64,000 nucleotides of DNA, taken from NCBI RefSeq assembly GCF_004323595.1, contig NZ_AP019373.1, positions 1,488,001-1,552,000 on the forward strand, given 5' to 3'. Made by a program: the position numbers and the translations under genes. The notes under the pieces were generated by a model. That model had not been told where the DNA came from, made no database searches, and saw only the letters and a program-made list of their open reading frames with translations. The stretch is from Sulfuricystis thermophila (GTDB lineage Bacteria > Pseudomonadota > Gammaproteobacteria > Burkholderiales > Rhodocyclaceae). Below, one piece after another: positions 1,750-26,638 of this stretch; position 1 is the first letter of the stretch; each line of letters begins with the position of its first letter.

Positions 1750-1785
1750 AAAAACATCAACGCCCGCTCAAAGCGGGCGCTGATG
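1750..1785 (-). terminator. Rho-independent terminator of the PEP-CTERM gene
   Basis: Arms CATCAACGCCCGCT (1755-1768) and AGCGGGCGCTGATG (1772-1785) form a 14-bp stem with one mismatch and a 3-nt loop. Read on the minus strand, the stem is followed by a T run (complement of the A run at 1750-1754), just after the stop codon at 1811. Confidence 0.75.
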
Positions 1786-1810
1786 CGGTCACGAGACTAT
1801 CAGGCAAGCA

Positions 1811-2581
1811 TCAAGCGGCCTTGCGGCGCCTCACGGCGAGACCGGCGAGCCCCAATCCCATCAGGGCCAGCGTAGCCGGCTCGGGGACATTGCCACCGCC
1901 ACCCGTGCCGTTGTCGCCGCCGCCGCCCTGCACGGTGCCAAAGCCATCGAGATAGACATAACCGGCATGTGCACCATACGGACAGTCCGCCGCCAGCAGG
2001 CTGACCTCGAAATTGTGGCCCTGCGAGACGTTCAGCGAAACTTCCGTCCAGGGGTTCCAATACCAGCCCGACGAATAGTTGAACAAGCCAGGGGCGGTTG
2101 CTGAGGAATAAGCCACATTGTAGAGAACCGTGTTCGTCGTCAAGTCGGTGATCTTGAGACCGAAAATATCGGAATCGGTCACGCCATGAGAGGACTGAAG
2201 CACTGCGGCCCAGGCAAAGTTGATCGACGTCCCGTCGTAATTATTGACGATTTGGCGGATCACATTGACAGAAAAATTATTGACGGAATTATTGATCCGG
2301 GCTGAGTAGGTGCCATACTTGACCATGCTCTGGCCTGTGATCGGATCGTTGCCCGCAGAGACGATGGCCCCCTGCCAATTGGTATTGCTGCCCAGATAGC
2401 TTGCCGGGTTGAGCGCCAAGCTTCCGTCAGAGTACCCAGTATTGCCGTAATTAACTCCCGACCCCTGTTCCCAGCCGGTGAAGGTCCCGTTTTCGAAACC
2501 GCCATTCACGAAGCTTGCCGCATTCGCTGTTCCAATGGCGCCCAAGGATAACAATGCGACTGCCAATGCCGTTTTTTTCAT
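1811..2581 (-). CDS. PEP-CTERM sorting domain protein
   Basis: Exported protein of unknown function, predicted to be cleaved and anchored by an exosortase (XrtA-type system). The start ATG at 2581 was preferred over the one at 2587 because it lies 7 nt from the GGGG Shine-Dalgarno. The 256-residue product begins with a Sec signal (MKKTALAVALLSLGAIGTANA). A Ser/Asn/Gly/Tyr-rich, beta-type body follows, with NGGFENGTFTGWEQG near the N terminus. A Gly-rich linker precedes the C-terminal VPEPATLALMG motif, hydrophobic segment and RRRKAA tail. The gene is monocistronic with a sigma-54 type promoter. Such proteins usually act in exopolysaccharide or floc formation; the specific role cannot be read here. 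Confidence 0.92.
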   Translation of the reverse strand: MKKTALAVALLSLGAIGTANAASFVNGGFENGTFTGWEQGSGVNYGNTGYSDGSLALNPASYLGSNTNWQGAIVSAGNDPITGQSMVKYGTYSARINNSVNNFSVNVIRQIVNNYDGTSINFAWAAVLQSSHGVTDSDIFGLKITDLTTNTVLYNVAYSSATAPGLFNYSSGWYWNPWTEVSLNVSQGHNFEVSLLAADCPYGAHAGYVYLDGFGTVQGGGGDNGTGGGGNVPEPATLALMGLGLAGLAVRRRKAA

Positions 2582-2671
2582 TTTCATACCCCTTTCGATT
2601 TTGTCTATCAACGAAGGTTGCCGTGACATCGCAATCCCAACATCTCGTCATGCACGACACACCGAACTGAA

Positions 2672-2687
2672 TGCACATTACATGCCA
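2672..2687 (-). promoter_or_regulatory. Sigma-54 promoter of PEP-CTERM gene
   Basis: Minus-strand TGGCATGTAATGTGCA matches the RpoN consensus TGGCAC-N5-TTGCW in 9 of 11 fixed positions, with the invariant GG and GC dinucleotides exactly 10 nt apart. It lies about 85 nt upstream of the ATG. Confidence 0.7.
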
Positions 2688-2749
2688 GATTTATTTAGTC
2701 TTTTATAATCAGTTCGTTAGCGCATTCTATTTTTTTCGTAGGGAGAGAA

Positions 2750-2765
2750 TGTAAAAAAAATCGAC
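2750..2765 (-). promoter_or_regulatory. Candidate enhancer box (PrsR-like)
   Basis: Minus-strand GTCG-N7-TTACA box with an all-A/T spacer, 62 bp upstream of the sigma-54 promoter. The same box occurs upstream of the second PEP-CTERM gene, 52 bp from its sigma-54 promoter. Binding by the PEP-CTERM regulator PrsR is inferred. Confidence 0.5.
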
Positions 2766-2791
2766 GTTTTATGAGTCGTCTGACAAGGGAT

Positions 2792-3424
2792 TCATGACAA
2801 ACCGACCGTGGGGTTCAACGTGTAAACCCCGGTCAGGCTCGCCTGGGCGAGGATGTGCCCCTGCATCGCCGCCAGCGCCTCTTGGCCGGTGAATTTGCCC
2901 TCCAGCGGCAGACGCTCGAGGTCGAGCGCATAGACGGTGAATACGTAGCGGTGGCGCAGCTCGTCGTTCCACGGCGGGCAGGGACCGTCGTAGCCGTAGT
3001 AGTCGCCGCTCATGTCGCGGTCGCTGGCGAACCAGCCGGTGTAATCGTTGATGCCCTGGCGCGCGCCATGCGCCGCCGCCGGCTCTGCCTTGCCTCGTGG
3101 CGTGACGCCATTGGAGAACTCGCCCGCGGCGATGCTCGTCACGCTCGCCGGCAGATCGATCAGCACCCAATGGAAGAAATCGACGCGCGGCAGGCTCGCC
3201 GGCACCGTGCGGCCTTCCTGATTGACGTCGTCGCCCCGGCTCGGCACGTCCGGGTCAACGCAGATCACCGCGAACGATTTCGTCCCCGCGGGTGCGCCGG
3301 TCCAGGCAAGCTGCGGATTGCGGTTGCCGCCGAGGCACACGTGCGCGGCCTCATCGGGTCTGCAGAACGCGAATTCCCCGGGAATACGTTCTCCATCCTT
3401 GAAACTGTTGCTGGTCACCTGCAT
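2792..3424 (-). CDS. YbhB/YbcL-family (PEBP/Raf kinase inhibitor-like) protein
   Basis: Phosphatidylethanolamine-binding-protein fold. The 210-residue product carries the family signatures VDPDVPS, HWVLIDLP, and YDGPCPPWNDELRHRYVFTVYALD, which form the ligand pocket. Bacterial members are small cytoplasmic or periplasmic proteins with no settled substrate; no signal peptide is seen here. ATG 3424 (MQVTSNSF) was chosen over the frame's upstream start at 3442 because homologues begin near this point. It starts 15 nt after the stop of the pseudouridine synthase gene upstream and is probably co-transcribed with it. Confidence 0.88.
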   Translation of the reverse strand: MQVTSNSFKDGERIPGEFAFCRPDEAAHVCLGGNRNPQLAWTGAPAGTKSFAVICVDPDVPSRGDDVNQEGRTVPASLPRVDFFHWVLIDLPASVTSIAAGEFSNGVTPRGKAEPAAAHGARQGINDYTGWFASDRDMSGDYYGYDGPCPPWNDELRHRYVFTVYALDLERLPLEGKFTGQEALAAMQGHILAQASLTGVYTLNPTVGLS

Positions 3425-3438
3425 GATCGCCCTCCTCG

Positions 3439-4185
3439 TCAAAAACGCTCATCGGCCCCAAGGAAGCGCCATTGGCCGAGCGGCAGCTCGCCGAGTCTCA
3501 CGCGGCCGATGCGCACGCGCTTGAGACCGACGACGCGCAAACCCACCCGCTCGCACATGCGGCGGATCTGGCGCTTCTTGCCTTCCTTGAGGATGAATTG
3601 CAGCTGGTCTTCATTCTGCCAACGCACCTTGGCCCGTTTCAGGGGGCGGCCATCGAGGCTGAGGCCATGGTTGAGCAGCGCCAGCCCGCGTTCGTCGAGC
3701 CGGCCTTCGACCCGGACGAGATATTCCTTCTCGATCTCGCTGTCCTCGCCGATCAGCTGGCGGGCAATGCGGCCGTCCTGCGTGAGGACCAGCAAGCCCG
3801 TCGAATCGATGTCGAGCCGGCCGGCCGGCGCCAGACCTTTCAAGATCGACGGCTGGAAGCGCCGCACATCGCCCGCCATCTGGTTTTCGGGCTTCACCAG
3901 CACGACGGCGGGCAGATAGCCATCTTCGGCCTGTCCGGAAACATAGCCCACCGGCTTGTGCAGCAGAATCGTCGCCAGTTGCGCCTGCCGGTTCTGCGCC
4001 CGCGAGGCCAGCTCGATCTTGGCATCGGGTGCGCAGCGCGTGCCGAGCTGCGTCACCTTCTGGCCATTGACGAACACCAGCCCCTGCTCGATGAAGGCAT
4101 CGGCTTCGCGGCGCGAGCAGAGCCCGCGCTGCGCCATCAGTTTCGAAACCCGCTCGCCGGGTTGCGTATCATTCATGCTCACCAT
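3439..4185 (-). CDS. RsuA/RluB/RluF-family rRNA pseudouridine synthase
   Basis: Isomerises a specific uridine in rRNA. The 248-residue product has an N-terminal S4 RNA-binding domain ([28 protein letters not shown]) and a catalytic domain with [11 protein letters not shown] and [17 protein letters not shown], whose first Asp is the nucleophile. [16 protein letters not shown] is the conserved C-terminal motif. Sequence alone does not separate RluF (23S U2604) from RluB or RsuA; RluF-like is favoured. ATG 4176 (MNDTQPG) is an alternative start. It is divergent from rlmJ, whose ATG is 14 nt away, so both promoters must overlap the two gene starts. Confidence 0.88.
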
Positions 4186-15259: not shown

Positions 15260-16462
15260 ATGAGCACGTCCCTCTTCGCCAATGTCGAAATGGCCCCCCG
15301 CGATCCGATCCTGGGCCTCAACGAAGCCTTCAATGCCGAAACCAATCCGAACAAGGTAAACCTCGGTGTCGGGGTTTATTTCGGCGACGATGGCAAGATT
15401 CCGCTGCTCGCCTGCGTCAAACAGGCCGAAAAAGCCCGCCTCGAAGCCCAGCCGCCGCGCGGCTACCAGCCGATCGAAGGCACACCCGCCTACAACGGCG
15501 CCGTGCAAAACCTGCTCTTCGGCAAAGATTCCGAATTGCTCGCTGCCGGCCGCGCCGTCACCTGCCAATGTTTGGGCGGCACGGGCGCGCTCAAGGTCGG
15601 CGCCGATTATCTCAAGCGCTTGTTGCCCGACGCCACCGTCTACATCTCCGATCCGAGTTGGGAAAACCACCGCGCACTGTTCGAGGCCGCTGGCTTTCCG
15701 GTCAAGGAATACGCCTATTACGACCCGGCGACGCGCGGCGTGAATTTCGCCGGCATGAAGGCAGCTTTGCTGGCCATGCCCGCCCGCAGCATCGTCGTGC
15801 TGCATGCCTGCTGCCACAACCCGACCGGCGCCGACCTGACGCTCGAACAGTGGAAGGAAATCGTCGCCGCGATCAAGGAGCGAGATCTGGTCGCCTTCAT
15901 CGACATGGCCTACCAGGGGTTCGCCGATGGCATCAAGGAAGACGCCGCCGCGCTGGATCTCTTTGCCGCCTCGGGCCTGCAGTTCTTCGTCTCCAGCTCG
16001 TTCTCGAAGTCCTTCTCGCTCTATGGCGAACGCGTCGGCGCGCTGACCATCGTCACCGCGAACAAAGACGAATCCGCCCGCGTGCTCTCACAGGTCAAGC
16101 GCGTGATCCGCACCAATTACTCGAACCCGCCCACCCACGGCGGCGCCATCGTCGCGGCCTGCCTCTCCAGCCCCGAGCTGCGCCAGATGTGGGAAGACGA
16201 ACTCGCCGGCATGCGCAACCGCATCCGCACCATGCGCACGAGCCTGGTCGAGAAGCTCGCCACCAACGGCGCCAAGGGTTTCGAATTCATCAATGTGCAG
16301 CGCGGCATGTTCTCCTACACGGGTCTTTCCGCCGCACAGGTCGAGCGGCTCAAGAGCGAATTCGGCATCTACGCCGTCTCGACCGGCCGCATCTGCGTCG
16401 CGGCGCTCAACACCCGCAACATCGAGTACGTCGCCAAGGCGATCGCCGCCGTGATCCAATGA
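15260..16462 (+). CDS. Aromatic/aspartate aminotransferase (class I, PLP)
   Basis: Transfers amino groups between aspartate or aromatic amino acids and 2-oxoglutarate. The 400 residues begin FANVEMAPRDPILGLNEAF, the N terminus of AspC/TyrB enzymes. SSSFSKSFSLYGERVGAL contains the PLP-binding Lys. CCHNPTGADLT is the Asn/Pro loop, and TGRICVAALN near the C terminus carries the carboxylate-binding Arg. ATG 15260 has a GGAG ribosome-binding site 10 nt upstream. AspC and TyrB cannot be separated by eye. A tRNA-Val locus follows 22 nt after the stop. Confidence 0.93.
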   Translation: MSTSLFANVEMAPRDPILGLNEAFNAETNPNKVNLGVGVYFGDDGKIPLLACVKQAEKARLEAQPPRGYQPIEGTPAYNGAVQNLLFGKDSELLAAGRAVTCQCLGGTGALKVGADYLKRLLPDATVYISDPSWENHRALFEAAGFPVKEYAYYDPATRGVNFAGMKAALLAMPARSIVVLHACCHNPTGADLTLEQWKEIVAAIKERDLVAFIDMAYQGFADGIKEDAAALDLFAASGLQFFVSSSFSKSFSLYGERVGALTIVTANKDESARVLSQVKRVIRTNYSNPPTHGGAIVAACLSSPELRQMWEDELAGMRNRIRTMRTSLVEKLATNGAKGFEFINVQRGMFSYTGLSAAQVERLKSEFGIYAVSTGRICVAALNTRNIEYVAKAIAAVIQ

Positions 16463-16465
16463 GGT

Positions 16466-16471
16466 TATAAT
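16466..16471 (+). promoter_or_regulatory. -10 box of the tRNA-Val locus
   Basis: Perfect TATAAT ending 13 nt before the tRNA 5' half. No convincing -35. In the present arrangement it would transcribe the broken half-tRNA and then the complete element-borne tRNA-Val. Confidence 0.6.
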
Positions 16472-16484
16472 GCATGCCTCTATC

Positions 16485-16526
16485 GGGCGGTTAGCTCAGC
16501 GGTAGAGCACTGCCTTCACACGGCAG
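16485..16526 (+). pseudogene. 5' half of host tRNA-Val(CAC), split by integration
   Basis: Carries the acceptor 5' strand (GGGCGGT), D arm and a full anticodon arm CTGCC-TTCACAC-GGCAG (anticodon CAC), but no variable loop, T arm or acceptor 3' strand. These missing 33 nt are found at 25417-25449. Joining the two halves gives an intact 75-nt tRNA whose arms all pair. Confidence 0.9.
16513..16526 (+). other. attL core
   Basis: 14-nt direct repeat CCTTCACACGGCAG, identical to 25403-25416. It covers the 3' side of the anticodon stem and the loop, the usual crossover site of tRNA-targeting tyrosine recombinases. Together with element bases to 16530 it forms a perfect 9-bp palindromic stem AGCACTGCC/GGCAGTGCT. 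Confidence 0.85.
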
Positions 16527-16540
16527 TGCTAAATGGAAGT

Positions 16541-16615
16541 GGGCGGTTAACTCAGCGGTAGAGTGCCACCTTCACACGGTGGAAGTCACTGGTTCGATCC
16601 CAGTACCGCCCACCA
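16541..16615 (+). tRNA. tRNA-Val (anticodon CAC), element-borne, complete
   Basis: 75 nt including encoded CCA. Acceptor GGGCGGT/ACCGCCC, D arm CTCAGCGGTAGAG, anticodon stem CCACC/GGTGG with loop TTCACAC, T arm CTGGTTCGATCCCAG. Its anticodon stem differs from that of the split host gene (CTGCC/GGCAG), so it is a different allele brought by the element, not a duplication of the target. It lies 14 nt inside attL and should be expressed from the host tRNA promoter, replacing the destroyed gene. Confidence 0.95.
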
Positions 16616-16630
16616 CTTCCAAGGTTTCAG

Positions 16631-16648
16631 GGTTAGCATTCGCTAACC
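16631..16648 (+). terminator. Hairpin after tRNA-Val
   Basis: Perfect 7-bp stem GGTTAGC/GCTAACC with ATTC loop followed by TTT. It could terminate tRNA transcription ahead of the integrase gene. Confidence 0.5.
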
Positions 16649-16695
16649 TTTGGTAGCACGATAGTTTGGGGTTCATGCTTGGGGCAGGCATCTTT

Positions 16696-16706
16696 TGCAC
16701 AGTGCA
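16696..16706. promoter_or_regulatory. Palindrome before integrase gene
   Basis: TGCAC-A-GTGCA, a perfect dyad directly upstream of the AAGGAG ribosome-binding site of the integrase gene; a possible operator, inferred only from symmetry. Confidence 0.35.
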
Positions 16707-16721
16707 CAAGGAGCCTGAAGA

Positions 16722-17612
16722 ATGCGTCCCAAAATCGATCTGCGCCTGGCGATGGCGCATGTAACTGAACATATCGCCGCCGAAATGACCTTCGCCGAAT
16801 TGGTGAAGGCTTACTGCGCCGTGCAGTTCGACGGCGCGGATTTGCGTCTGCGCAAGTGGGTTGAGGCCTTCGGCCCCGAATCCGCGTGGTCGCTATCGAC
16901 CCGCCAGATCAGCCTCGCCGCCGAGGCGATGCTGCAATCCGGCCTCTACAAGGCCTCCACGATCAATCGCGACACCAGCACCCTCGGCACGGTCTTCAAG
17001 TGGGCCATCCGCCGCCACCTGGCCCCGGTCGGTTTCGTCTCGCCGACCATCGGCCTGCAGCGCTATGAAGAGGCGATCCGTCGCGTCGAGCTCAATGACG
17101 AAGAGGTTGCCAAGCTGATCGATGGCGCCAAGGCCTTCAAGGATAGGCGCTTCGCCGCCTTCGTGCGGCTGGTGATCGAAACCGGCGCGCGGCGCAGCGA
17201 GATCCTCAATCGCCGCTGGGCGGAAGTGGATCTCGACAAGCGCACCGTCGAAGTGCTCGACACCAAGACCGGCAAGCCGCGGATGCTGTTTTTCAGCGAA
17301 AGCACGGCCGCCTTGATGAAGCGCATCTGGCCCAAGCAACCGCCCGGCGAACTGCTGTTCGAGAGTACCCGCGTCAAGGGGCAGCCGATCAATTACCGCA
17401 ACCAGTGGGCGGCGCTGACAACATCCATCGGGCGCGCCGATCTGCATCTGCATGACCTGCGCCACCATCGCGCGGCCGAGTTGCTTAAGAGCGGCGCCAC
17501 CATTGCCGTCGCCGCCCAGGTACTCGGGCATTCCAGCCTGATTTTGCAGCGCCGCTACGGTCATCTTGAAACGAAAACCTTGCGCGCCGCGACGGAGGCA
17601 TCATGGAACTAA
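16722..17612 (+). CDS. int: Tyrosine recombinase/integrase of the satellite
   Basis: Site-specific recombinase expected to integrate and excise the element at tRNA-Val. The 296 residues have an N-terminal SAM-like core-binding domain (about 20-110) and a catalytic domain. Catalytic residues are visible as R157 in TGARRSEIL, H244-x-x-R247 in HDLRHHR, H270 in LGHSS, and the nucleophile Y279 in RRYGHL. It is short, without an obvious arm-binding domain. The ATG follows AAGGAG by 9 nt. Position next to attL is typical. The next small gene overlaps its end by 10 nt. Confidence 0.93.
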   Translation: MRPKIDLRLAMAHVTEHIAAEMTFAELVKAYCAVQFDGADLRLRKWVEAFGPESAWSLSTRQISLAAEAMLQSGLYKASTINRDTSTLGTVFKWAIRRHLAPVGFVSPTIGLQRYEEAIRRVELNDEEVAKLIDGAKAFKDRRFAAFVRLVIETGARRSEILNRRWAEVDLDKRTVEVLDTKTGKPRMLFFSESTAALMKRIWPKQPPGELLFESTRVKGQPINYRNQWAALTTSIGRADLHLHDLRHHRAAELLKSGATIAVAAQVLGHSSLILQRRYGHLETKTLRAATEASWN

Positions 17613-17821
17613 CCTTACGCGAACAAAGGCTGTTGGTTGCTTTCCGGGAACGCTCTGCAGGCACCCAAAAGGTCATTGAGGACGTTGCGGTTCATATGAT
17701 GGGACACAACCGCCGCGTGGCAGCAAAAAATGATTTGATCGCCCTCGATGCAGCGGCTACCAAGCGCAAGCTTGGTAGCCGTGCTTTGCCGTGTCAAGTA
17801 AGGGAGGCATCATGGCAATGA
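17603..17821 (+). CDS. Hypothetical satellite protein (72 aa)
   Basis: Not recognised. 72 residues, Arg/Ala-rich, with a helical N-terminal half (LTLREQRLLVAFRERSAGTQKVIEDVAVHM). Strong GGAGG ribosome-binding site in the same GGAGGCATCATGG context that precedes the next gene, and it overlaps both neighbours by 10 nt. This translational coupling argues that it is a real gene. It could be a small DNA-binding or excision protein, but no helix-turn-helix can be claimed. Confidence 0.6.
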   Translation: MELTLREQRLLVAFRERSAGTQKVIEDVAVHMMGHNRRVAAKNDLIALDAAATKRKLGSRALPCQVREASWQ

Positions 17822-18333
17822 CATTGTATGAAGCCAAAAAGATCGTCGGCGAAGGATCGGCAGAGGTCTATCTGCAGCGCTTTATCGAGAAAACCTTGAA
17901 AGCACATCATGCGGGACTGATCGATGGCGCGGCGCTAGCACCGGAAGCCGACGATGCGTGTATCGCGGCGGTTTGTCTCGCGATGGTGCTGGATGAGCCG
18001 GGCGTCCGGAAAGCGCTCAATCTCAAGCGCCTGCCGCGCGGTCGGGCGTTCGATCCCTGGGAATTGGCGGCGCGCTCTGGCATGCGCGCCATGCATACGG
18101 CTTTGCGATACCGCCTGGGCTTGATTGACCAGTCTGCCGCTCTGAACGAGCTGGCGAACGCGTGTGAGGATGTTTACGGCCGGCAGCCAAAGGACGACAA
18201 GACCATCGCCAGCATGTTGCAAGAACTGGTTGGCGAGGCTGACGCGGATATCGAGAGGGCTGGCGCCGGGGTACTGGTCGAGATCGAAGAAATCATGAAA
18301 CGTTGGACAAGGGGGCGGGAAAATGATCGATAA
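17812..18333 (+). CDS. Hypothetical satellite protein (173 aa)
   Basis: Not recognised. Start ATG 17812 was chosen because it sits 5 nt after AGGGAGG; an earlier in-frame start has no ribosome-binding site. The product MAMTLYEAKKIVGEGSAEVYLQ is predicted mostly alpha-helical, with an Ala/Leu-rich centre and an acidic C-terminal part (VGEADADIERAGAGVLVEIEEIM). No transmembrane segment or Cys/His cluster. It overlaps the upstream gene by 10 nt and the downstream gene by 11 nt. Confidence 0.65.
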   Translation: MAMTLYEAKKIVGEGSAEVYLQRFIEKTLKAHHAGLIDGAALAPEADDACIAAVCLAMVLDEPGVRKALNLKRLPRGRAFDPWELAARSGMRAMHTALRYRLGLIDQSAALNELANACEDVYGRQPKDDKTIASMLQELVGEADADIERAGAGVLVEIEEIMKRWTRGRENDR

Positions 18334-18568
18334 CTTCTTCGCCAAGATGAGCAAGCCGGAAATCCGCAAGCTAATCTTGGAGCAAATCGAAGGCCGACCC
18401 CTATGGCAAGGTTTGCTTGAAGAAAGCAGCTTCCGATTTGATCCGTTCACCGAGAAGGCAATCGAGGACTGTTTCAGGCGGATTCGCGCCCTCGCCCGCA
18501 ATGGCGAATTGATCCGAAAAAACACACCAACCGCCAGCAAAGGCGTGGTGCTGCAATTTCGGGCTTGA
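18323..18568 (+). CDS. Hypothetical satellite protein (81 aa)
   Basis: Not recognised. MIDNFFAKMSKPEIRKLILEQ begins a short helical protein. Spacing of hydrophobic residues and the C-terminal stretch RIRALARNGELIRKNTPTASKGVVLQF resemble the beta-wing of a small winged-helix protein, but this is only an impression. It overlaps the upstream gene by 11 nt. It is followed by a 150-bp gap with a GC-rich hairpin (GGCGGACTTCGGTCCGCC, about 18588-18606). Confidence 0.6.
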   Translation: MIDNFFAKMSKPEIRKLILEQIEGRPLWQGLLEESSFRFDPFTEKAIEDCFRRIRALARNGELIRKNTPTASKGVVLQFRA

Positions 18569-18663
18569 TCCGGACGGCCGGCGGACTTCGGTCCGCCGTG
18601 GCACTACCTAAGACAGAAAGTAATCGCCGGGCATTTTGGTTTTATTGATCCAAGCAGCTAACT

Positions 18664-18716
18664 AACCTCTCCTTCGCGCCTGCCCCAAGCGTGATCGCTC
18701 AAGTTAAGGAGAGGTT
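18664..18716 (+). promoter_or_regulatory. SD-sequestering hairpin, copy 1
   Basis: Perfect 11-bp stem AACCTCTCCTT (18664-18674) / AAGGAGAGGTT (18706-18716). The right arm is the Shine-Dalgarno of the ATG at 18719. The loop contains CTGCCCCAAG and a small AGCG-TGAT-CGCT stem. Homologous to the hairpin at 18787-18840. Confidence 0.7.
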
Positions 18717-18718
18717 CG

Positions 18719-18886
18719 ATGAAAAACTCGCAAGCAATAGACCGGCGAAATTCTTCCGGTAACAATTTCGCAGCACCAAAACTACTCTCTCCTTCACTTA
18801 AGCGTCTGCCCCAAGACATGTTCAACCAAGTGAAGGAGAGTTTTGATGGGAATTTTTCAAACAACAGGATGGATACCGGCTTCTGA
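18719..18886 (+). CDS. Small satellite ORF (55 aa)
   Basis: MKNSQAIDRRNSSGNNFAAP is the start of a 55-residue basic, Asn/Ser-rich peptide, not recognised. It has an ideal AAGGAGAGG ribosome-binding site that is buried in a perfect hairpin, and spacing identical to that of the next gene (18846). It overlaps the first 41 nt of that gene. It may be a real small protein or a leader peptide whose translation opens the second hairpin inside it. Confidence 0.45.
   Translation: MKNSQAIDRRNSSGNNFAAPKLLSPSLKRLPQDMFNQVKESFDGNFSNNRMDTGF
18745..18771 (+). repeat. 27-bp hairpin repeat, copy A
   Basis: Stem GCGAAATT/AATTTCGC around a CTTCCGGTAAC loop. It is 23/27 identical to 23070-23096 elsewhere in the element. 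Confidence 0.65.
18787..18840 (+). promoter_or_regulatory. SD-sequestering hairpin, copy 2
   Basis: Perfect 13-bp stem CTCTCCTTCACTT (18787-18799) / AAGTGAAGGAGAG (18828-18840). The right arm holds the Shine-Dalgarno AAGGAGAG for the ATG at 18846. The loop shares CTGCCCCAAG with copy 1. Confidence 0.75.
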
Positions 18887-19235
18887 AGCCTGGTTTAATT
18901 TCGTCCGCGATCACCCAGAGTTCGGCGTCAAGCCGACCGAAAGTTCCTGGATTCACTTCCAGCGCACCCATGCGAAAGCCCTGATCGATGCCGACGTAAT
19001 ACGCCGCATCGCCTGGCGCGGTCGCATGCTGGCAGATACATCGCGCTTCGATACGGCGACGTTCAATCTGCTGACGACTGGCAGCGTTGAAGGAAGGAAT
19101 CGAACCGGGAGCGCTGCCCCTAAGATCGATTACGAAGGGCAGGCAAAAACCTTGCACGAAGCGGGTGATGGCCTTCGGCAGTTATTGGGTGGCAAACAGC
19201 CCGCCGCTCAGACTGTGGAGCCAAGCCATGACTAA
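18846..19235 (+). CDS. Hypothetical satellite protein (129 aa)
   Basis: Not recognised. MGIFQTTGWIPASEAWFNFV begins a 129-residue mixed protein, with a Trp-rich N terminus and WIHFQRTHAKALIDADVIRRIAWRGRML in the centre. It ends with a polar, probably disordered tail (KQPAAQTVEPSHD). ATG 18846 sits 6 nt from AAGGAGAG, which is part of a 13-bp hairpin. The next gene overlaps by 8 nt. Confidence 0.65.
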   Translation: MGIFQTTGWIPASEAWFNFVRDHPEFGVKPTESSWIHFQRTHAKALIDADVIRRIAWRGRMLADTSRFDTATFNLLTTGSVEGRNRTGSAAPKIDYEGQAKTLHEAGDGLRQLLGGKQPAAQTVEPSHD

Positions 19236-19446
19236 GCCCGCGAATGCGATCACCAAGCCGAAGAACCCCCCCGGCCTGGCACTGCGGCTGCTGCGTGACG
19301 TGTCTTTATCAGCGGCCGATTACGCTCAATGCGTAGTAGCTGGCGGCATCGCCTCAGTCCCTGCCCGGATCGCCAACGGGCGATTGGATGACGACCTCAA
19401 GGCGGCTTCCGAATTCCTCTCGAAAATCGACGGGGCGACATCATGA
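19228..19446 (+). CDS. Hypothetical satellite protein (72 aa)
   Basis: Not recognised. ATG 19228 has GGAG 9 nt upstream and overlaps the previous stop by 8 nt. The product MTKPANAITKPKNPPGLALR has a basic, Pro-rich N terminus and a helical C-terminal half (VSLSAADYAQCVVAGGIASVPARIANGRLDDDLKAASEFLSKI). The latter has the length and helix-turn-helix rhythm of small phage regulators, but no definite family can be named. Stop and next start overlap as ATGA. Confidence 0.55.
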   Translation: MTKPANAITKPKNPPGLALRLLRDVSLSAADYAQCVVAGGIASVPARIANGRLDDDLKAASEFLSKIDGATS

Positions 19447-19607
19447 GCAAGGGAAACCGCCGGCGCTTTTTTGTGGCTCTCGCGAATCGCAAACGCAATC
19501 CCGAATCGTGGTTCCCTGGGGTGCCGACCATGGCGGAAAAAGCGGGTAAGAACAGAGTGTGGACGAAACCGCCAAAACCCAAAGGTGGAAGGGGGCGCAA
19601 TGTCTGA
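19443..19607 (+). CDS. Small basic satellite protein (54 aa)
   Basis: MSKGNRRRFFVALANRKRNP begins a 54-residue protein that is very rich in Lys and Arg (about one third of residues) and ends GGRGRNV. It is joined by ATGA to the gene before and overlaps the primase start by 8 nt. A nucleic-acid-binding role is suggested by charge and by coupling to primase, but there is no motif. The length is too short for most gene finders. Confidence 0.5.
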   Translation: MSKGNRRRFFVALANRKRNPESWFPGVPTMAEKAGKNRVWTKPPKPKGGRGRNV

Positions 19608-21972
19608 TCTCGGCATCCCGGAGGCATTGCGCGCCCGCCGCCAGTGGTTGATCTGGAAGCTTGAAGAGAAGCCGGGCGCGAAGAAGCCAGCGAAGATGCC
19701 CTACTACGCGAATGGCAAGCGACGCACGGGGCAGCAAGGATCGGCGGCGGATCGCGCGGCGCTGGTCGACTATGTGACTGCGCTGGCCGCCGTCGAGCAA
19801 CATCAAGCATCAGGCCTTGGCTTCGCCTTCCTGCCGGATGATGGCTTGATCGGCATCGACCTGGATAACAAGGTCGATGCGGAGACCGGCGAAATCTCGC
19901 CGTCCGCGCAGCGCATCATCGAGGCCTGCGCTTCCTATACCGAATGGTCGCCATCGGGTCGCGGCTTCCATATCTACGTCGCTGGCAGCACCCAAACCGC
20001 CAAGGACAACGGCAAGGGCATTGAGATGTTCTGCGGGCGGCAGTTCTTCACCGTGACCGGCAAGCACCTGACCGGCACGCCGGTCGATATCCGACCGATT
20101 GAACCCGATGTACTCGCGCGCCTGCATCAGGCCATCAAAGGCAGCAACCCTACCCCGACCGGCGAAATGCCGGTCGATGCCAAGATCGCATCGGCGCTCG
20201 ATTATCTCTCTCCCGATTGCGGTTACGACGATTGGCTGCACGTCGGCATGGCGATCCATGCCGAGCTGGGGGAGTCGGGCTTTGCGCTGTGGAACAGATG
20301 GAGCGCCAAGTCGGGAAAGTATCCCGGTGAACGCGAGATGCGCGCCAAGTGGAAATCGTTCCGACCTGGTGCGATCACTGGCGCGACGCTCTACGGCTTG
20401 GCGCATGCGGCCGGCTGGCGCGTTGCGCGGCTGGTTGATACCAATACCCCGCCCACCCCGAAAAAATCGCCCAGCGGCGATTCTGGTGCAAGTGTTAACG
20501 AGGATGCCGTGTGGCCCGATCCGATTCAGCCGGGCAGCCGCACGACACCGGAAATTCCCGCCGCCATCCTGCCGGGGATTTTTGGCGAGCACGCGGCGGC
20601 CGTGGCGCAATCAACGCAGACGCCCCCTGCCCTGGCGACGCTGTTCACCATCAGCGTGCTGGGGTGCGTCCTGCATGGGCGGTTCGAAGTCTCGCCCTTC
20701 GACGACGACTATCGTGAATCGTTGGCGATCTGGACGAATACCTGCTATCCCGTGGGCGGCCGCAAAACCGCCGTTTTTGCGGCCTGCTGCGCCCCGCTGG
20801 TCCGTTTCGAAAAGCTCGCCGGAGATCGCGCTCGACCGGAGATTTATCGCCGCTTTGCCGCGCGAGAAGTCGCCACGAAGCGAATCGAGAAACTGAGGCA
20901 GGACGCCGCCCGCGAGGACAATGCCGAGCGGCGCGCGAAGATCGAGGACGAAATCCGCCGCACGCGCGAGGAGATGCCCGACGAGCTGAAGGCGCCGCGC
21001 ATCTTCACGACCAATGCCACTCCGGAGCGCTGCGAGAGCCTGTTGGCCGAGCAAGGCGGGAAGATCGGCATCCTATCCGACGAGTCGGATACCTTCCTGA
21101 ATCTTTCCGGCGCTCTGCGCGGCGGCGTGGCCAGTTTGGACGTGGTGCTGAAGGGGCACGCCGGCAGCGCGATCCGCGTGGATCGGCAAGGCCGGGAAGC
21201 GCATCTTGATCGGCCGTGTCTCTCCATGGGGTTGATCGTGCAACCGGAGTCATTTGCCGAGCTGGCCGCCGGTCGCCGCCTGCGCGCCACGGGCGTGCTG
21301 GCCCGCTACCTGTACGCCATCCCGAAAAGCAACATCGGTCTGCGCGATGTGCGGCAACGGTGCCCGATCCCGCAGCGCGTCGCCGACGACTATCAGGATG
21401 CCGTGTTGCGCCTTCTCGACGGCTATGAGGAGCGCGGGCGCGAGCCGCGCATCCTGCCCTTCACGGCCGCCGCGCTGGAACCCTGGCTGAGCTTTGCCGA
21501 GGGCGTGGAGCGTCACCAAGGGGAAGGCGGACGTTATGAGGCGATCTCCGACTGGACATCCAAGCTGCCCGGCCATGCCGCGCGCCTCGCCGCCTTGTTC
21601 CAGATTGCCGAGGAGGGACTCGACGCGGTTGAGATCGGTATCGAGGCCGTGAATCGTGCGCTCGACCTGTGTCGGCTGCTGGTGCCGCATGCCGAGGCGG
21701 CCTTCGCCATGTTGGGCAGCGACGATACCGATATCGATGCACTGGCCGTCCTGCGCTGGATCAAGGCAGGCAACCGGCAATACTTCACCCGGCGCGAGGC
21801 GCAACGGGCCATGCACGGCCGTTTCTCCAAGGTGGAGCGGCTGGAACGCGCGCTTGCCCACCTGCGCGACCTGTACGTCATCAGCGGCGAGAAAAAGGCG
21901 GCGACCGGCGGCCGTGCATCGGCGTACTACCTGGTCAATCCCAAGCTGCATGTGACAAAAGGTGCCGCATGA
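19600..21972 (+). CDS. Primase-polymerase with PriCT_2 and DUF3987 helicase-like domain
   Basis: Probable replication protein of the satellite. ATG 19600 gives 790 residues. Residues 1-170 look like an archaeo-eukaryotic primase-polymerase: GIDLDN (85-90, metal Asp pair), SPSGRGFHIY (117-126) and GRQFFTVTG (146-154). Residues about 195-270 match PriCT_2 (YDDWLHVGMAIHAELGESGF). From about 320 the DUF3987 region begins, with IWTNTCYPVGGRKTAVFAA as a degenerate P-loop. The C terminus (ALAHLRDLYVISGEKKAATG) resembles a winged-helix tail. Purines and spacing support the start; an upstream 43-codon extension is rejected because it overlaps a basic ORF in another frame. Confidence 0.85.
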   Translation: MSDLGIPEALRARRQWLIWKLEEKPGAKKPAKMPYYANGKRRTGQQGSAADRAALVDYVTALAAVEQHQASGLGFAFLPDDGLIGIDLDNKVDAETGEISPSAQRIIEACASYTEWSPSGRGFHIYVAGSTQTAKDNGKGIEMFCGRQFFTVTGKHLTGTPVDIRPIEPDVLARLHQAIKGSNPTPTGEMPVDAKIASALDYLSPDCGYDDWLHVGMAIHAELGESGFALWNRWSAKSGKYPGEREMRAKWKSFRPGAITGATLYGLAHAAGWRVARLVDTNTPPTPKKSPSGDSGASVNEDAVWPDPIQPGSRTTPEIPAAILPGIFGEHAAAVAQSTQTPPALATLFTISVLGCVLHGRFEVSPFDDDYRESLAIWTNTCYPVGGRKTAVFAACCAPLVRFEKLAGDRARPEIYRRFAAREVATKRIEKLRQDAAREDNAERRAKIEDEIRRTREEMPDELKAPRIFTTNATPERCESLLAEQGGKIGILSDESDTFLNLSGALRGGVASLDVVLKGHAGSAIRVDRQGREAHLDRPCLSMGLIVQPESFAELAAGRRLRATGVLARYLYAIPKSNIGLRDVRQRCPIPQRVADDYQDAVLRLLDGYEERGREPRILPFTAAALEPWLSFAEGVERHQGEGGRYEAISDWTSKLPGHAARLAALFQIAEEGLDAVEIGIEAVNRALDLCRLLVPHAEAAFAMLGSDDTDIDALAVLRWIKAGNRQYFTRREAQRAMHGRFSKVERLERALAHLRDLYVISGEKKAATGGRASAYYLVNPKLHVTKGAA

Positions 21973-22125
21973 GTTTCGTCACCAAAAGCCATTTGTCAGT
22001 AGACATGATTAACAGAGTTTCTTTTCTTTTAAAGACATATCCATCCATGCTCGGTGACAGTGACAGAAGTGCCAAAAGGTCGATTATGGCTTTTGTCGCT
22101 TTTGTCGCTTTTGTCACTGTCACCG
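21954..22125. other. Iteron-rich candidate replication origin
   Basis: Six copies of (A/C)CAAAAG(G/C) within 162 bp: direct at 21954, 21981 and 22071, and inverted as a head-to-tail triplet GCTTTTGTC at 22089, 22098 and 22107. A perfect 14-bp inverted repeat CGGTGACAGTGACA (22052-22065) / TGTCACTGTCACCG (22112-22125) encloses the triplet. Position immediately after a primase gene resembles satellite-phage origins. Confidence 0.5.
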
Positions 22126-22133
22126 GGGTGTAA
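21969..22133 (+). CDS. Possible small ORF (54 aa) over the iterons
   Basis: ATG overlaps the primase stop (ATGA). The product starts MSFVTKSHLSVDMINRVSF and ends with a hydrophobic AFVAFVAFVTVTGV made by the 9-bp iteron triplet. Because the DNA repeats dictate the C terminus, this may be non-coding origin DNA that happens to be open. Confidence 0.3.
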   Translation: MSFVTKSHLSVDMINRVSFLLKTYPSMLGDSDRSAKRSIMAFVAFVAFVTVTGV

Positions 22134-22166
22134 GTAGCACTGCCATTTGAATAGGAGGCAATCGAA

Positions 22167-22466
22167 ATGAACCTTGCATCAATCGGACTTGAAGTAACCA
22201 ATCCCGATCAAAGCGTCGAGATCGAGGGCAGCAGTTTCGGTGAGTTCTGTCTGTTCTTGCATGCGCACGCAAGCAATCTTGAAATGCTGGTGCGTGTGGT
22301 GGAGATGGAAAATCCAGACGGATCGAACACCCGCTTACTGTCCGCGCAGCAAGCCATGACCAACATGAGCAACGCAGTACGGAATGCCCTGCACGAGCAC
22401 CTGCGGCTAGCTCAGGAGCAAGGCCTGCGCTTCGCTATCAAGGATGGTCCGCGCACCGCACATTGA
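22167..22466 (+). CDS. Hypothetical satellite protein (99 aa)
   Basis: Not recognised. MNLASIGLEVTNPDQSVEIE begins a 99-residue protein. A beta-rich N-terminal part is followed by a helical C-terminal part (SAQQAMTNMSNAVRNALHEHLRLAQEQGLRF). AGGAGG ribosome-binding site 9 nt upstream of the ATG. It stands alone between the iteron region and the packaging genes, with 113 bp to the small terminase gene. Confidence 0.6.
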   Translation: MNLASIGLEVTNPDQSVEIEGSSFGEFCLFLHAHASNLEMLVRVVEMENPDGSNTRLLSAQQAMTNMSNAVRNALHEHLRLAQEQGLRFAIKDGPRTAH

Positions 22467-22579
22467 CTGGCCGTGAGTACAGCGGGTCCTTCCCAGCTAA
22501 ATCCCACACGGCGCGAAACGACCGCAGGAAATCGCCAGTTCTCTGAACTGTAAGAGCTTGACTGACAAAGGATATTGCC

Positions 22580-23068
22580 ATGAACATAGTTGGACAGCAG
22601 CAGATTGCCGACCTCTTTGCAGTAAGTCGCGAGACTATCGATAGTTGGCAGAAGGAAGGCATGCCCGTCGCCGTGCGCGGCGGGCCGGGAACGTCGAGCG
22701 AATACAACAGCCGCGCCTGTATCGACTGGCTGGTGGATCGCGAGTTGCGCAAGGCACAGGCCGTGCGGCCGCAAGACCGCCTGGCACGTGCGCAGGCCGA
22801 CAAGATCGAGATGGAGAACGCCGAGCGCCGCGGGATGCTGATTCCGGCCGATCAGCTTGAGCCAAAACTGAAGGCCGCCTTTGTCGCTGCGCGCGAGGCT
22901 TGGCTCGAGGCACCACAGCGCCTGGCGCGCGAACTGCCAGAAGATCTGCGTCTGCGCGAAGAGATGCTGCAGGCCGAGTTCGAGGCATTCCTGAATCGTC
23001 TGGCGGATTGGGCCTGCGCGGGTCCTGGTTACGACGAGGACGAGGCCGAAGCCAATAGGGGAAAGTAA
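22580..23068 (+). CDS. Nu1-like small terminase subunit / DNA-packaging recognition protein
   Basis: Probable DNA-recognition component of packaging. The 162 residues open with a winged-helix motif of the lambda gpNu1/MerR type (IADLFAVSRETIDSWQKEGMPVAVRGG). A coiled helical middle follows (PQDRLARAQADKIEMENAERRGMLIP), as in Nu1/DUF1441 proteins. The C terminus is acidic. No large terminase partner lies in the element, so it may redirect a helper phage's terminase to the satellite's packaging site. GC and strand match the rest of the element. Confidence 0.78.
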   Translation: MNIVGQQQIADLFAVSRETIDSWQKEGMPVAVRGGPGTSSEYNSRACIDWLVDRELRKAQAVRPQDRLARAQADKIEMENAERRGMLIPADQLEPKLKAAFVAAREAWLEAPQRLARELPEDLRLREEMLQAEFEAFLNRLADWACAGPGYDEDEAEANRGK

Positions 23069-23069
23069 T

Positions 23070-23096
23070 GCGAAATTATTCCGGTATAAGTTTCGC
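23070..23096 (+). repeat. 27-bp hairpin repeat, copy B
   Basis: GCGAAA/TTTCGC stem, 23/27 identical to 18745-18771. It is followed by a second stem (CAGTGC 23110-23115 / GCACTG 23139-23144, with CCCCT/AGGGG outside), recalling the arrangement at 18745-18840. Confidence 0.6.
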
Positions 23097-23316
23097 TTCC
23101 CTCCCCTTACAGTGCCGACATGCTTGAGCTTCCGTCGAGCACTGCTGAGTAGGGGTTCAATCGCTTCGCGCTTGCCCTGCCACCAGCGGTAATCCGGAAT
23201 GCGGGAGGCCTGCAGAGCGCGGGTTCTGGTCAAAGCGAAGGCCCATCCGAAGGGATGGATTTTCACGGCCGGTCCCGCGTTTTGCTTTTTTGGCCCGGTC
23301 ACATCAGGAGAATCAT
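23097..23316 (+). other. Structured leader before the capsid gene
   Basis: Non-coding stretch between small terminase and capsid genes with several stems: CCCCT..AGGGG (23103/23151), CCATCC-GAAG-GGATGG near 23243, and GCGGG/CCCGC (23219/23274) followed by T-rich sequence. It is a candidate for a packaging (cos/pac) site, terminator or translational control region; none can be proven from sequence. Confidence 0.35.
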
Positions 23317-25143
23317 ATGCCTGGCAATAGAGATCGCCGTGTCAGATCGATCGAGCTACGGGTTGCCGACATCGAGGGGGACCGTATCCCCTGCGTCGTC
23401 AGTTCCGAGGAGCCCGTTGATCGCGGTGACTATTTCGAGGTGCTGAGTCACAACCCGTCCGATATCGACCTGCGTCGCGCGCCGCTGCCGTTGATCGTTC
23501 AACACGATCACAGACAGCTTAACGTCGGCGTCGTCGAGGATCTGCGGGTTGAAGGCCGGAAGCTGCGCGGCATGGCCCGCTTCGGTTCCAGCGAACTGGC
23601 GCAGCAGCTCCTCCGCGACGTGAAAGACGGCATCGTCCGCAATCTTTCCGTCGGCTATCGAATCAATAAAGCACTTGAAGAGCTGGGCCGCGTGGTTCGT
23701 TTCAGTTGGCAGCCGCTTGAAGTCAGCGCGGTTTCCATTCCTGCCGACCCGCAGGCCGGCTTCTTTCGTTCCCTCACATTGGAAGGAAATCACATGAACA
23801 CCAATACCGAAAACGTCACCACCCCTGACCACCAGTCGCGCTCGCAGCAACGCGCCTCGCGCCGCTACGAATCGGAGATTCGCGAGTCGGTGCGGGAGAT
23901 CAACGCGCTGGCCGAGCAATTCAATATTTCCAGCCGCGACGTAAACAACTTCATCGACGACGCTGGCCTTGACGTTGCCGGATTCCGGGCCTTCGTCATG
24001 GACAAGATTAAGGATCGCGGTACCGGGAGCATCCGGTTTGACGAGTCTCCCGAACTGGGCATGACCGGCCGCGAGATCGAGCGCTACAGCGTCACGCGCG
24101 CACTCCGCGCCCTGACCGACCCGATGGCAAAGCGCGATGCTGGATTCGAAATCGAATGCAGCCGCGCCTATGCGCAGAAGATCGGCAAGGAACCCCAGGG
24201 GCTGTTCATTCCATTTGAAGCACTGCAGACGCGCGACCTGACGGTTGGCACGCCGTCCGATGGCGGCTACTTACGCCCGACAGATCACCTCGCCAATCAG
24301 TTCGTCGATTACCTGCGCAAGCGTTCTTTCACGGCGGCGCTGGGTGCAACGATGCTGTCCGGTCTGAATGGCAACGTTTCCATCCCGACGCAAACTGGAA
24401 CGAGCACAGGTTACTGGGTGACGGAAAACGGTGCTGTAACCGAATCTCAGCCCACCTTCGGCCAGATCAACCTGACGCCGAAAACCGTTGGCTCCTATAC
24501 CGATTACTCACGCAAGATGCTGTTGCAGGCCTCGCCCGAAATCGAAATGCTGGTGAGGCGCGACCTGGCCGGCATGATCGCGACGGAAATCGATCGTGCC
24601 GCGATCCACGGGTCCGGCACCAACAACCAGCCGACGGGCATCCTGAATACCTCGGGAGTTGGTTCGGTTGCTCTCGGCAGCAACGGCGGCGCACCTACAT
24701 GGGAAAGCATGCTGCAGCTCGAAGAAAGCATTGCTCTGGCCAATGCCGACATTCAAGGCATGGCGTTTATGACAAATGCCAAAGTGCGCCGCAAGCTCCA
24801 ATCAACGCTGAAAGTCACTGGCGATGCGGGCGGCGGCTGGGTTTGGGAGTCGATTGCCGCCCAGGAGCCAGGCTGGGGCCGGATCGGCGGCTATCGTGCG
24901 GTGAGCACAAACCAGGTGCCGAGCAACCTCACCAAGGGCACCAGCGTCGGCGTCTGCTCGGCGATTATCCTGGGCAACTGGAGCGATTTGCTGATTGGCA
25001 TGTGGGGCGGCCTTGATGTGCTCGCCGACCCCTACAGCGGCGGCACAGCCGGCATTCATCGCATCATCACCCTGCAGGATGTCGATGTTGCCCTACGCCG
25101 CCCGGTTAGCTTCGCCGCCATCCTGGATGCCCTGACGGCTTGA
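23317..25143 (+). CDS. Fused HK97-type prohead protease and major capsid protein
   Basis: 608-residue polyprotein. Residues 1-155 are an HK97-like prohead protease (U35/S78 type), with H63/H65 in VQHDHRQLNVG and Ser111 in NLSVGY as likely catalytic residues, ending PLEVSAVSIPADPQAGF. From about 165 there is a charged helical delta-like scaffold region. An HK97-fold capsid follows, with GGYLRPTDHLANQFVDYLRKRSF, TGYWVTENGAVTESQPTFGQI and AAIHGSGTNNQPTGIL. ATG 23317 has AGGAG upstream. An internal ATG at 23794 with GGAAGGA 6 nt upstream could yield the 449-residue capsid alone. Self-cleavage during assembly is inferred. Confidence 0.93.
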   Translation: MPGNRDRRVRSIELRVADIEGDRIPCVVSSEEPVDRGDYFEVLSHNPSDIDLRRAPLPLIVQHDHRQLNVGVVEDLRVEGRKLRGMARFGSSELAQQLLRDVKDGIVRNLSVGYRINKALEELGRVVRFSWQPLEVSAVSIPADPQAGFFRSLTLEGNHMNTNTENVTTPDHQSRSQQRASRRYESEIRESVREINALAEQFNISSRDVNNFIDDAGLDVAGFRAFVMDKIKDRGTGSIRFDESPELGMTGREIERYSVTRALRALTDPMAKRDAGFEIECSRAYAQKIGKEPQGLFIPFEALQTRDLTVGTPSDGGYLRPTDHLANQFVDYLRKRSFTAALGATMLSGLNGNVSIPTQTGTSTGYWVTENGAVTESQPTFGQINLTPKTVGSYTDYSRKMLLQASPEIEMLVRRDLAGMIATEIDRAAIHGSGTNNQPTGILNTSGVGSVALGSNGGAPTWESMLQLEESIALANADIQGMAFMTNAKVRRKLQSTLKVTGDAGGGWVWESIAAQEPGWGRIGGYRAVSTNQVPSNLTKGTSVGVCSAIILGNWSDLLIGMWGGLDVLADPYSGGTAGIHRIITLQDVDVALRRPVSFAAILDALTA

Positions 25144-25402
25144 TGAGCGAGCTGGCCAGGCGAGAGAGTTGCCCATAGCCTGGCTGGCTTTGCATCAACA
25201 CTAACTTGAGGTTGATGCAATTCTCCCATGGGAAACACCGGCCGCTTGATTGCGGGACGCCACTCCGGGCGCTGAGGAGGTTCAGCTCGACGTGGCACCC
25301 TCCCCTCCCCGTTTCAATTTTGCAGACGTATGCAACGGCTAATCGCGCTATTGCTTTGCGCTCCACTTGCGCTATACTTGCTCGGGCCTGTTTCAGTATA
25401 TA
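25144..25402. other. Right-end non-coding region of the element
   Basis: About 260 bp with no credible gene. It contains a perfect 10-bp hairpin TTGCATCAAC (25190-25199) / GTTGATGCAA (25211-25220), which may act as a terminator for the capsid gene or an integrase arm site, and an outward promoter near the end. The rest shows nothing I recognise. Confidence 0.6.
25351..25378 (+). promoter_or_regulatory. Outward promoter at the element's right end
   Basis: TTGCTT (25351-25356), 16-bp spacer, TATACT (25373-25378). In the integrated state it points into the orphan 3' half-tRNA. In the excised circle it would lie just upstream of attP, the element's tRNA-Val and int. Confidence 0.5.
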
Positions 25403-25416
25403 CCTTCACACGGCAG
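25403..25416 (+). other. attR core
   Basis: CCTTCACACGGCAG, identical to attL at 16513-16526. Confidence 0.85.
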
Positions 25417-25449
25417 GGGTCACTGGTTCGAACCCAGTACCGCCCACCA
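25417..25449 (+). pseudogene. 3' half of host tRNA-Val(CAC)
   Basis: Variable loop, T arm (CTGGTTCGAACCCAG) and acceptor 3' strand ACCGCCC plus ACCA. Together with 16485-16526 it restores a 75-nt tRNA-Val. Its original terminator follows. Confidence 0.9.
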
Positions 25450-25458
25450 GACATCGCC

Positions 25459-25487
25459 AGGCCCGGTCATTCCGACCGGGCCTTTTC
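25459..25487 (+). terminator. Original tRNA-Val terminator
   Basis: Perfect 10-bp stem AGGCCCGGTC/GACCGGGCCT, 5-nt loop, then TTTT. Confidence 0.85.
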
Positions 25488-25510
25488 ATTTCCTCCCCGC
25501 TGTCGCCCTT

Positions 25511-25536
25511 GTGCCGTCCTGCCAGCGCCGAATTTC
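25511..25536 (-). repeat. 26-bp dispersed repeat, copy 6
   Basis: Two substitutions from the consensus. It lies in the 3' gap 8 nt after the stop of the AttH-like gene. Confidence 0.8.
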
Positions 25537-25543
25537 ATCCGCG

Positions 25544-26638
25544 CTACAGCCGCATCGGCCGGTGGTAGCCGACGAGTTCGAGGTAGCCGCGCCCACGGCG
25601 CTTTCCCTCGGCGAGCAAAGTCACGGCTCCCTCCCAATACACCGCGCCGGTCGAGCGACGCGCGTCGAGTTCCTGGTCTTCCATCAGCGGTTCGATCTCG
25701 AACCGCAGCGCATCGGCGCGGCTGCCCAGTGTCAGGCGACAGCGCACCGGATAGTCCGTGCCGGTATGCGGCGAGCGCCAGGTGCCGATCGGCTCGAAAT
25801 GCACCTCGTCCGGCGCGAAGCTGCGCTCATGACCCTCCGCCGTGCGCAGCCGTGCGGCGGCCCAGAGACTGCCCTCGCCCGAGCGCGGCCGGATGCGGAA
25901 GGCCATCAGCGCGCCGCCATCGTCGAGATTGATGCCCACCCAGTCCCAGCCGGTTGCCGTGGCATCGAGGATCTGGCTCGACCATTCGTGATCGAGCCAG
26001 GCGCGACCACCGACCTCCAGGCGTTCGCCGCCTGCGCCAACTATGCCGGCGACGTCGAGCTGCGGCTGGCTATAGTAGTGACTCGCCTGGTCCGGCCGCG
26101 GCCCTTTCCGAGAGAATCCTCCCTCGCCCTGCAGCAGCAGCGGTTGCGTCGGCGCAAAGCGCAGATCGAGGGCGAAGGCTGCGGCGTCGATCCGCGCCTC
26201 ATAGCGACCGTCCGCCCCACGCCGCAAGCGCCAGCCGGCGAGGATCAGATCGGTATCGACACTCGAAAAGCCCGCCGCCGGATCGTCGCGCACCACGCGC
26301 GCCGCCCGCTGGTCGTGCAGCAGGCGGCCTTCACGCGGGCGCGCCAGCGCGGCGTGGGCGAACAGCAGCTGATGCGGCGCGAAGCGCGACGGATTACCCG
26401 GATCGTGCGTGGTGCGGCTGCGGAAAAAAGTGATCTGGAAGCCGAGCGCTTCGGCGGCCGTTTCGAGCCAGCCGGTGACATACCACCATTCGGTGCGGAA
26501 TTCCGGATGCGCGCCATGATCGCGCGGGAAGATCAGCGGACGTGGCACGACGGACGGAAACGAGGGCGCCGCTGCCAGCAGACGACGCGGCAGCAGCGCG
26601 GTCAAGAGAAGCATTTCCAGCCAGCGCCGGCGCTGCAT
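25544..26638 (-). CDS. AttH/CrtC-like lipocalin-domain protein
   Basis: 364-residue exported protein of the hydroxyneurosporene synthase/AttH (carotenoid 1,2-hydratase-like) family. It has an Arg-rich N terminus with a hydrophobic signal segment (RRRWLEMLLLTALLPRRLLAAA), possibly Tat-like. Family signatures are HPEFRTEWWYVTGWLE, RAWLDHEWSSQILDATATGWDWVGINLDDG and MAFRIR. No carotenoid genes are nearby; the neighbours are an ABC ATPase and an FtsX permease, the Att-type arrangement, so a role with an exporter of lipid-like or toxic compounds is more likely. ATG 26638 overlaps the permease stop as ATGA. Confidence 0.85.
   Translation of the reverse strand: MQRRRWLEMLLLTALLPRRLLAAAPSFPSVVPRPLIFPRDHGAHPEFRTEWWYVTGWLETAAEALGFQITFFRSRTTHDPGNPSRFAPHQLLFAHAALARPREGRLLHDQRAARVVRDDPAAGFSSVDTDLILAGWRLRRGADGRYEARIDAAAFALDLRFAPTQPLLLQGEGGFSRKGPRPDQASHYYSQPQLDVAGIVGAGGERLEVGGRAWLDHEWSSQILDATATGWDWVGINLDDGGALMAFRIRPRSGEGSLWAAARLRTAEGHERSFAPDEVHFEPIGTWRSPHTGTDYPVRCRLTLGSRADALRFEIEPLMEDQELDARRSTGAVYWEGAVTLLAEGKRRGRGYLELVGYHRPMRL

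Follow-up and report, generated by a model that had tools for sequence, protein, structure and literature searches.

Shine-Dalgarno hairpins with loops complementary to the integrase leader in a satellite-like element of Sulfuricystis thermophila

Introduction

Why do two consecutive small ORFs in a satellite-like element of Sulfuricystis thermophila both start just behind a perfect hairpin that buries their Shine-Dalgarno (SD) sequence? The locus lies in a 64-kb stretch of the genome (64,000 nucleotides of contig NZ_AP019373.1; hereafter the window, whose numbering is used throughout). A sequence-only reading had described the hairpins and suggested that they might serve as a translational relay, an RNA thermometer or a binding site for a phage protein. 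Here we follow up these suggestions with structure prediction, comparison with related elements and searches for pairing partners.

Results

The host element is approximately 9 kb long, satellite-like and inserted at tRNA-Val; it spans 16541-25449 on the plus strand. No large terminase, portal or tail genes were found among the proteins identified in this interval. Its main features are as follows.

16541-16615: tRNA-Val, left end of the element
16722-17612, plus strand: tyrosine integrase gene (int), Pfam Phage_integrase, 67-76% identical to the integrases of the relatives
16541-25449: several small ORFs within the element
19600-21972: primase, PriCT_2/DUF3987
22580-23068: Nu1-type small terminase
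about 23317-25143: protease-capsid fusion
25433-25449: 17-bp copy of the tRNA 3' end, right end of the element

Two hairpins before two small ORFs

The hairpins and the ORFs that follow them are arranged in this order.

18664-18716, plus strand: hairpin 1; its right arm contains the SD AAGGAGAG of ORF 18719, and its stem covaries in relatives
18719-18886, plus strand: ORF 18719, 55 amino acids, with hairpin 2 inside it
18787-18840, plus strand: hairpin 2; its right arm contains the SD AAGGAGAG of ORF 18846, and its stem covaries in relatives
18846-19235, plus strand: ORF 18846, 129 amino acids, a predicted winged-helix DNA-binding protein

The stems, the SD-bearing right arms, the shared loop motif, the start codons and the nesting of hairpin 2 within the first ORF agree to the base with the sequence-only reading. 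Hairpin 1 pairs AACCTCTCCTT (18664-18674) with AAGGAGAGGTT (18706-18716) over 11 perfect bp around a 31-nt loop (18675-18705), and hairpin 2 pairs CTCTCCTTCACTT (18787-18799) with AAGTGAAGGAGAG (18828-18840) over 13 perfect bp around a 28-nt loop (18800-18827). The two structures are about 120 bases apart and clearly similar in arms and loops; both loops contain CTGCCCCAAG, at 18680 and 18806, and ATG codons follow the right arms after 2 nt (18719) and 5 nt (18846). Folded alone, hairpins 1 and 2 have predicted energies of -22.3 and -23.0 kcal/mol, with z-scores against shuffled sequences of about -3.3 and -3.1, respectively. Counting stems of at least 11 perfect bp with a loop of at most 50, an SD-like word in the right arm and then a start codon, we found exactly two on the plus strand of the 64-kb window; in 40 dinucleotide shuffles the same class occurred 0.05 times per strand on average and never more than once. 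Neither hairpin had a match in Rfam. Cross-pairing between the arms of hairpin 1 and hairpin 2 in the window was also considered and set aside, as L006 (see below) lacks it.

The sequence-only reading called both ORFs genes. The product of ORF 18846 is conserved, with 60% identity in each of the two relatives described below, whereas ORF 18719 had no family match and no detected protein relative; it probably serves as a leader ORF, extending across hairpin 2 and overlapping the start of ORF 18846 out of frame. The AF2 model of the ORF 18846 product is a winged helix of modest quality (mean pLDDT 65) that weakly matches MerR-type winged helices, TraN and a phage P2 DNA-binding protein; Foldseek returned no match with E <0.1 in either library. 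The protein may be an excisionase or AlpA-like regulator.

Stem covariation in related elements

IMG/VR, phages, plasmids and GTDB genomes were searched for relatives of the integrase or of ORF 18846. Close relatives came only from G264 (locus L005) and G284 (locus L006), identified by whole-genome searches of the same bacterial family, with integrases 67% and 76% identical to that of the window, respectively; integrase matches in plasmids and phages stayed below 60% identity. In IMG/VR, pattern searches at the DNA level with the int leader and loop sequences found no match. The three elements share the integrase, a gene like ORF 17812 (by inspection) and the ORF 18846 homologue. No Pfam family is common to the replication gene of the window and that of L005, which indicates that the hairpins travel with int and the 17812-like and 18846-like genes. 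A Phage_capsid gene is present in L005 as well (L005:10455-11432).

In both relatives a hairpin lies directly 5' of the ORF 18846 homologue. The single hairpin of L005 reads CCGTCA...TGACGG, followed by AGATTTTCAATG; that of L006 (hairpin b) reads CTCCGTCG...CGATGGAG, followed by GTTTTATATG, and L006 has a second hairpin (hairpin a) further upstream. The SD falls within or touches the right arm in four of the five hairpins. Hairpin a of L006 has no well-spaced start codon, and an open frame that begins in its right arm continues across hairpin b in the reading frame of the downstream gene.

Because MAFFT left the variable outer arms unaligned, a script counted the stem pairs in register. For the six loop-proximal pairs, all 30 cells are paired across the five hairpins (two each in the window and L006, one in L005), and every one of the six positions has changed on both sides while remaining paired. 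The loop sequence is kept, CCTGCCCCAAGCA-like, while the stem sequence drifts. The sequence-only reading had staked its proposal on the stems being conserved or covarying in homologous elements, and their recurrence in two relatives with different paired sequences thus supports SD-burying hairpins. With the SD inside a stable hairpin before a start codon, and a stem kept by compensatory change (five hairpins, three elements), these structures share two features with SD-sequestering translational control hairpins.

Complementarity to the int leader

The strongest lead, absent from the sequence-only reading, is the complementarity between the hairpin loops and a segment of the int leader about 2 kb upstream. 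The sequences involved are the following.

16674-16689, plus strand: int leader segment CATGCTTGGGGCAGGC, the complement of loops 1 and 2, conserved in L005 and L006
16685-16717, plus strand: predicted int leader hairpin CAGGC...GCCTG, with a weak z-score and a sequence conserved in the three elements
18678-18693, plus strand: loop 1 core GCCTGCCCCAAGCGTG, whose complement in the int leader is its best-ranked partner in the element
18806-18820, plus strand: loop 2 core CTGCCCCAAGACATG, also complementary to that leader if one base is bulged

An exact reverse complement of loop 1, GCTTGGGGCAGGC (13 nt), occurs at 16677-16689, giving a pairing of 13 nt that is perfect, or 16 nt with one wobble; when the region before int was shuffled 400 times, a complement of this length was reached once. 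The int leaders of the relatives, CATGCTTGCGGCAGGC in L005 and CCTGCTTGGGGCAGGC in L006, show the same arrangement. When duplex energies were scanned over 1,768-3,510 segments per element (both strands, hairpin antisense excluded), the int leader ranked first for all five loops in all three elements. The complementarity also follows the element: the 16-nt leader core has two variable positions in the three elements, and every matching loop carries the compensating base at both. Where loop and leader differ, most of the differences preserve a wobble pair or amount to one bulged base. Compared with the leader, three of the five loops contain one extra base; an RNA duplex would accommodate it as a bulge more readily than a protein site. 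In co-folding, each of the five hairpins favours the leader of its own element, a preference that is suggestive rather than strong, since with only three elements known a permutation of the cognate labels cannot give p below 1/6.

Partition-function co-folding was used to predict SD exposure. With the int leader present, the unpaired share of the SD in the four SD-burying hairpins rose from 0.09 to 0.74, from 0.003 to 0.67 (hairpin 2), from 0.05 to 0.66 and from 0.30 to 0.72; the corresponding means with shuffled leaders were 0.17, 0.04, 0.26 and 0.30. In the model, window hairpin 1 and some others were opened by non-cognate leaders as well. This energy model has no means of representing a kissing complex in which the outer stem stays intact, so pairing might also repress translation.

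The int leader may itself fold over the int SD: its predicted hairpin partly hides AAGGAG (16708-16713) and overlaps the loop-complementary segment; pairing with the loops is predicted to change this fold little. Because no sigma70-like promoter was found in 16450-18900, transcription of the int leader is putative. Just 5' of the int SD, a palindrome-like sequence, TGCACAGTGCA (16697-16707), is identical in all three elements and is a possible operator or the top of the int leader hairpin.

Discussion

We propose that the hairpins act as cis-acting translational off-switches located 5' of, and overlapping the start of, the winged-helix gene, and that their conserved loops would be landing sites for the int mRNA leader. 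The two RNAs would pair over approximately 16-20 nt, either in trans or within a single long transcript from int to ORF 18846. The most likely outcome would be that the loop and the 3' bulge are drawn into the intermolecular duplex, which would loosen the outer stem and free the SD; ORF 18719 and then ORF 18846 would be translated only with int mRNA present, and the passage of ribosomes through hairpin 2 could provide a relay in addition. That RNA-RNA control of this kind links int and the downstream gene, the int leader landing on the loops and freeing the SDs, seems to us plausible, though somewhat short of an even chance. A more specific version is tentative and on the unlikely side: the int mRNA leader would be a riboregulator that opens the hairpins before the gene for a partner DNA-binding protein, likely an excisionase, and the partner would be made only when, or only from transcripts where, int mRNA is present.

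The main rival to RNA pairing is a protein-DNA site, which we consider unlikely but serious. Here the shared motif CCTGCCCCAAGCAKGA would be bound as double-stranded DNA by the winged-helix protein or by the integrase. One copy would lie in the int leader, next to the integrated tRNA end, and the others before the protein's own gene for autoregulation, and the complementarity would be a by-product of inverted orientation. Excisionase sites often lie near such attachment junctions, and the int copy is about 60 bp from the tRNA junction; the resemblance of the ORF 18846 product to a winged-helix DNA-binding protein and the quasi-palindromic int copy of L006 (CCTGC-N5-GCAGG) point the same way. 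However, a single inserted base sets three of the five hairpin copies apart from the int copy, the covariation of the outer stems that flank the motif is left unexplained, and there is no further copy of the motif near the right end at 25433.

A conserved loop on a stem of drifting sequence is what would be expected of a hairpin read by a protein, and the hairpins could be repressive sites at which an RNA-binding protein, from a helper phage or from the element, recognizes the loop motif. We regard this as improbable: it does not explain why the reverse complement in the int leader is the best-ranked partner in three of three elements, and no candidate protein is known.

The relay suggested by the sequence-only reading is plausible where a frame runs through a hairpin, as it does through hairpin b in L006, but it is not universal, because L005 has a single hairpin and hairpin a of L006 lacks a well-spaced start codon. 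The stronger claim of a pure cis relay, with hairpin 2 opened only by ribosomes on ORF 18719 and no role for the int leader, has little chance of being correct. It draws on the passage of ORF 18719 through hairpin 2 and on the open frame of L006, from the right arm of hairpin a through hairpin b and in frame with the gene; the opening of hairpin 1 is left unexplained, no ORF of this kind was identified with the one hairpin of L005, and loop conservation would not be needed.

An RNA thermometer, to which an SD sequestered in a stem 5' of a start codon would be suited, is scarcely credible, as the stems are long and perfect (11-13 pairs, -22 to -23 kcal/mol), the SD of the window hairpins is predicted to be closed at 37 C (0.3-9% unpaired) and the conserved loop would have no explanation.

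With regard to pairing between the int leader and the loops, the nearest worked example is IsrK of the Salmonella prophage Gifsy-1, an RNA that makes the ribosome-binding site of the small ORF orf45 accessible, with translation coupled to anrP (PMC4825925). The window system would resemble it in outline: in the IsrK/orf45/anrP case, too, an element-encoded RNA pairs with an mRNA that has a small upstream ORF and a coupled downstream gene, and the ORF is conserved in nucleotides, not in amino acids, and can be fused to the downstream gene (PMC4825925). Judged by sequence complementarity, the element would encode an RNA able to pair with the sequestering structure, as in the IsrK type. In contrast to IsrK, the partner here would be the integrase mRNA leader and the target a looped SD hairpin in two copies; no Rfam match links the systems, and the effect in the window is a predicted one.

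The CI RNA of satellite phage P4 pairs with two sites, seqA and seqC (PMC4825925), and offers a second parallel, in that a satellite element has a single RNA segment complementary to two target sites. The P4 RNA lies between its targets and acts by premature transcription termination, whereas the targets in the window are SD-burying hairpins and the complement lies upstream, in the int leader. No C4 / P4 CI-type Rfam family matched the interval 16000-26000, with E values up to 10 allowed.

If pairing takes place as proposed, a satellite-like element would couple its integrase to a probable partner protein at the RNA level, by means of a leader that adjoins the tRNA insertion site. This would differ from the known RNA controls considered here: P4 CI RNA targets replication genes by termination, and IsrK targets anrP. 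To connect int by RNA with a second gene of the recombination module would put the principle to a new use.

The int-alpA RNA (RF02996) is also a structured RNA between int and a regulator gene, and a clear copy is present in L005 (L005:5255-5321), between int and the hairpin gene. Its consensus shape and sequence differ from those of the window hairpins, and its covariance model had no match in the window even at E up to 10. It scored above the cut-off in 54 of 199 genomes of the bacterial family; none of 40 int-alpA RNA loci of that family that we examined had a convincing loop motif. A crude test of pairing between int-alpA RNA and the int leader, in which the integrase was found by pattern in only four loci, gave no signal and is uninformative. 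The CCTT loop of the int-alpA RNA and its 3' AAGG look able to pair as a pseudoknot.

Two further structures were noted in the element. A perfect 12-bp hairpin, CGGCTACCAAGC-gcaa-GCTTGGTAGCCG (17754-17781), lies 5' of ORF 17812, at a position near that of the int-alpA RNA in L005. An inverted repeat 3' of the primase gene (22052-22125) has 27-nt arms that are 89% complementary and spaced by 20 nt, and overlaps a 9-nt tandem repeat.
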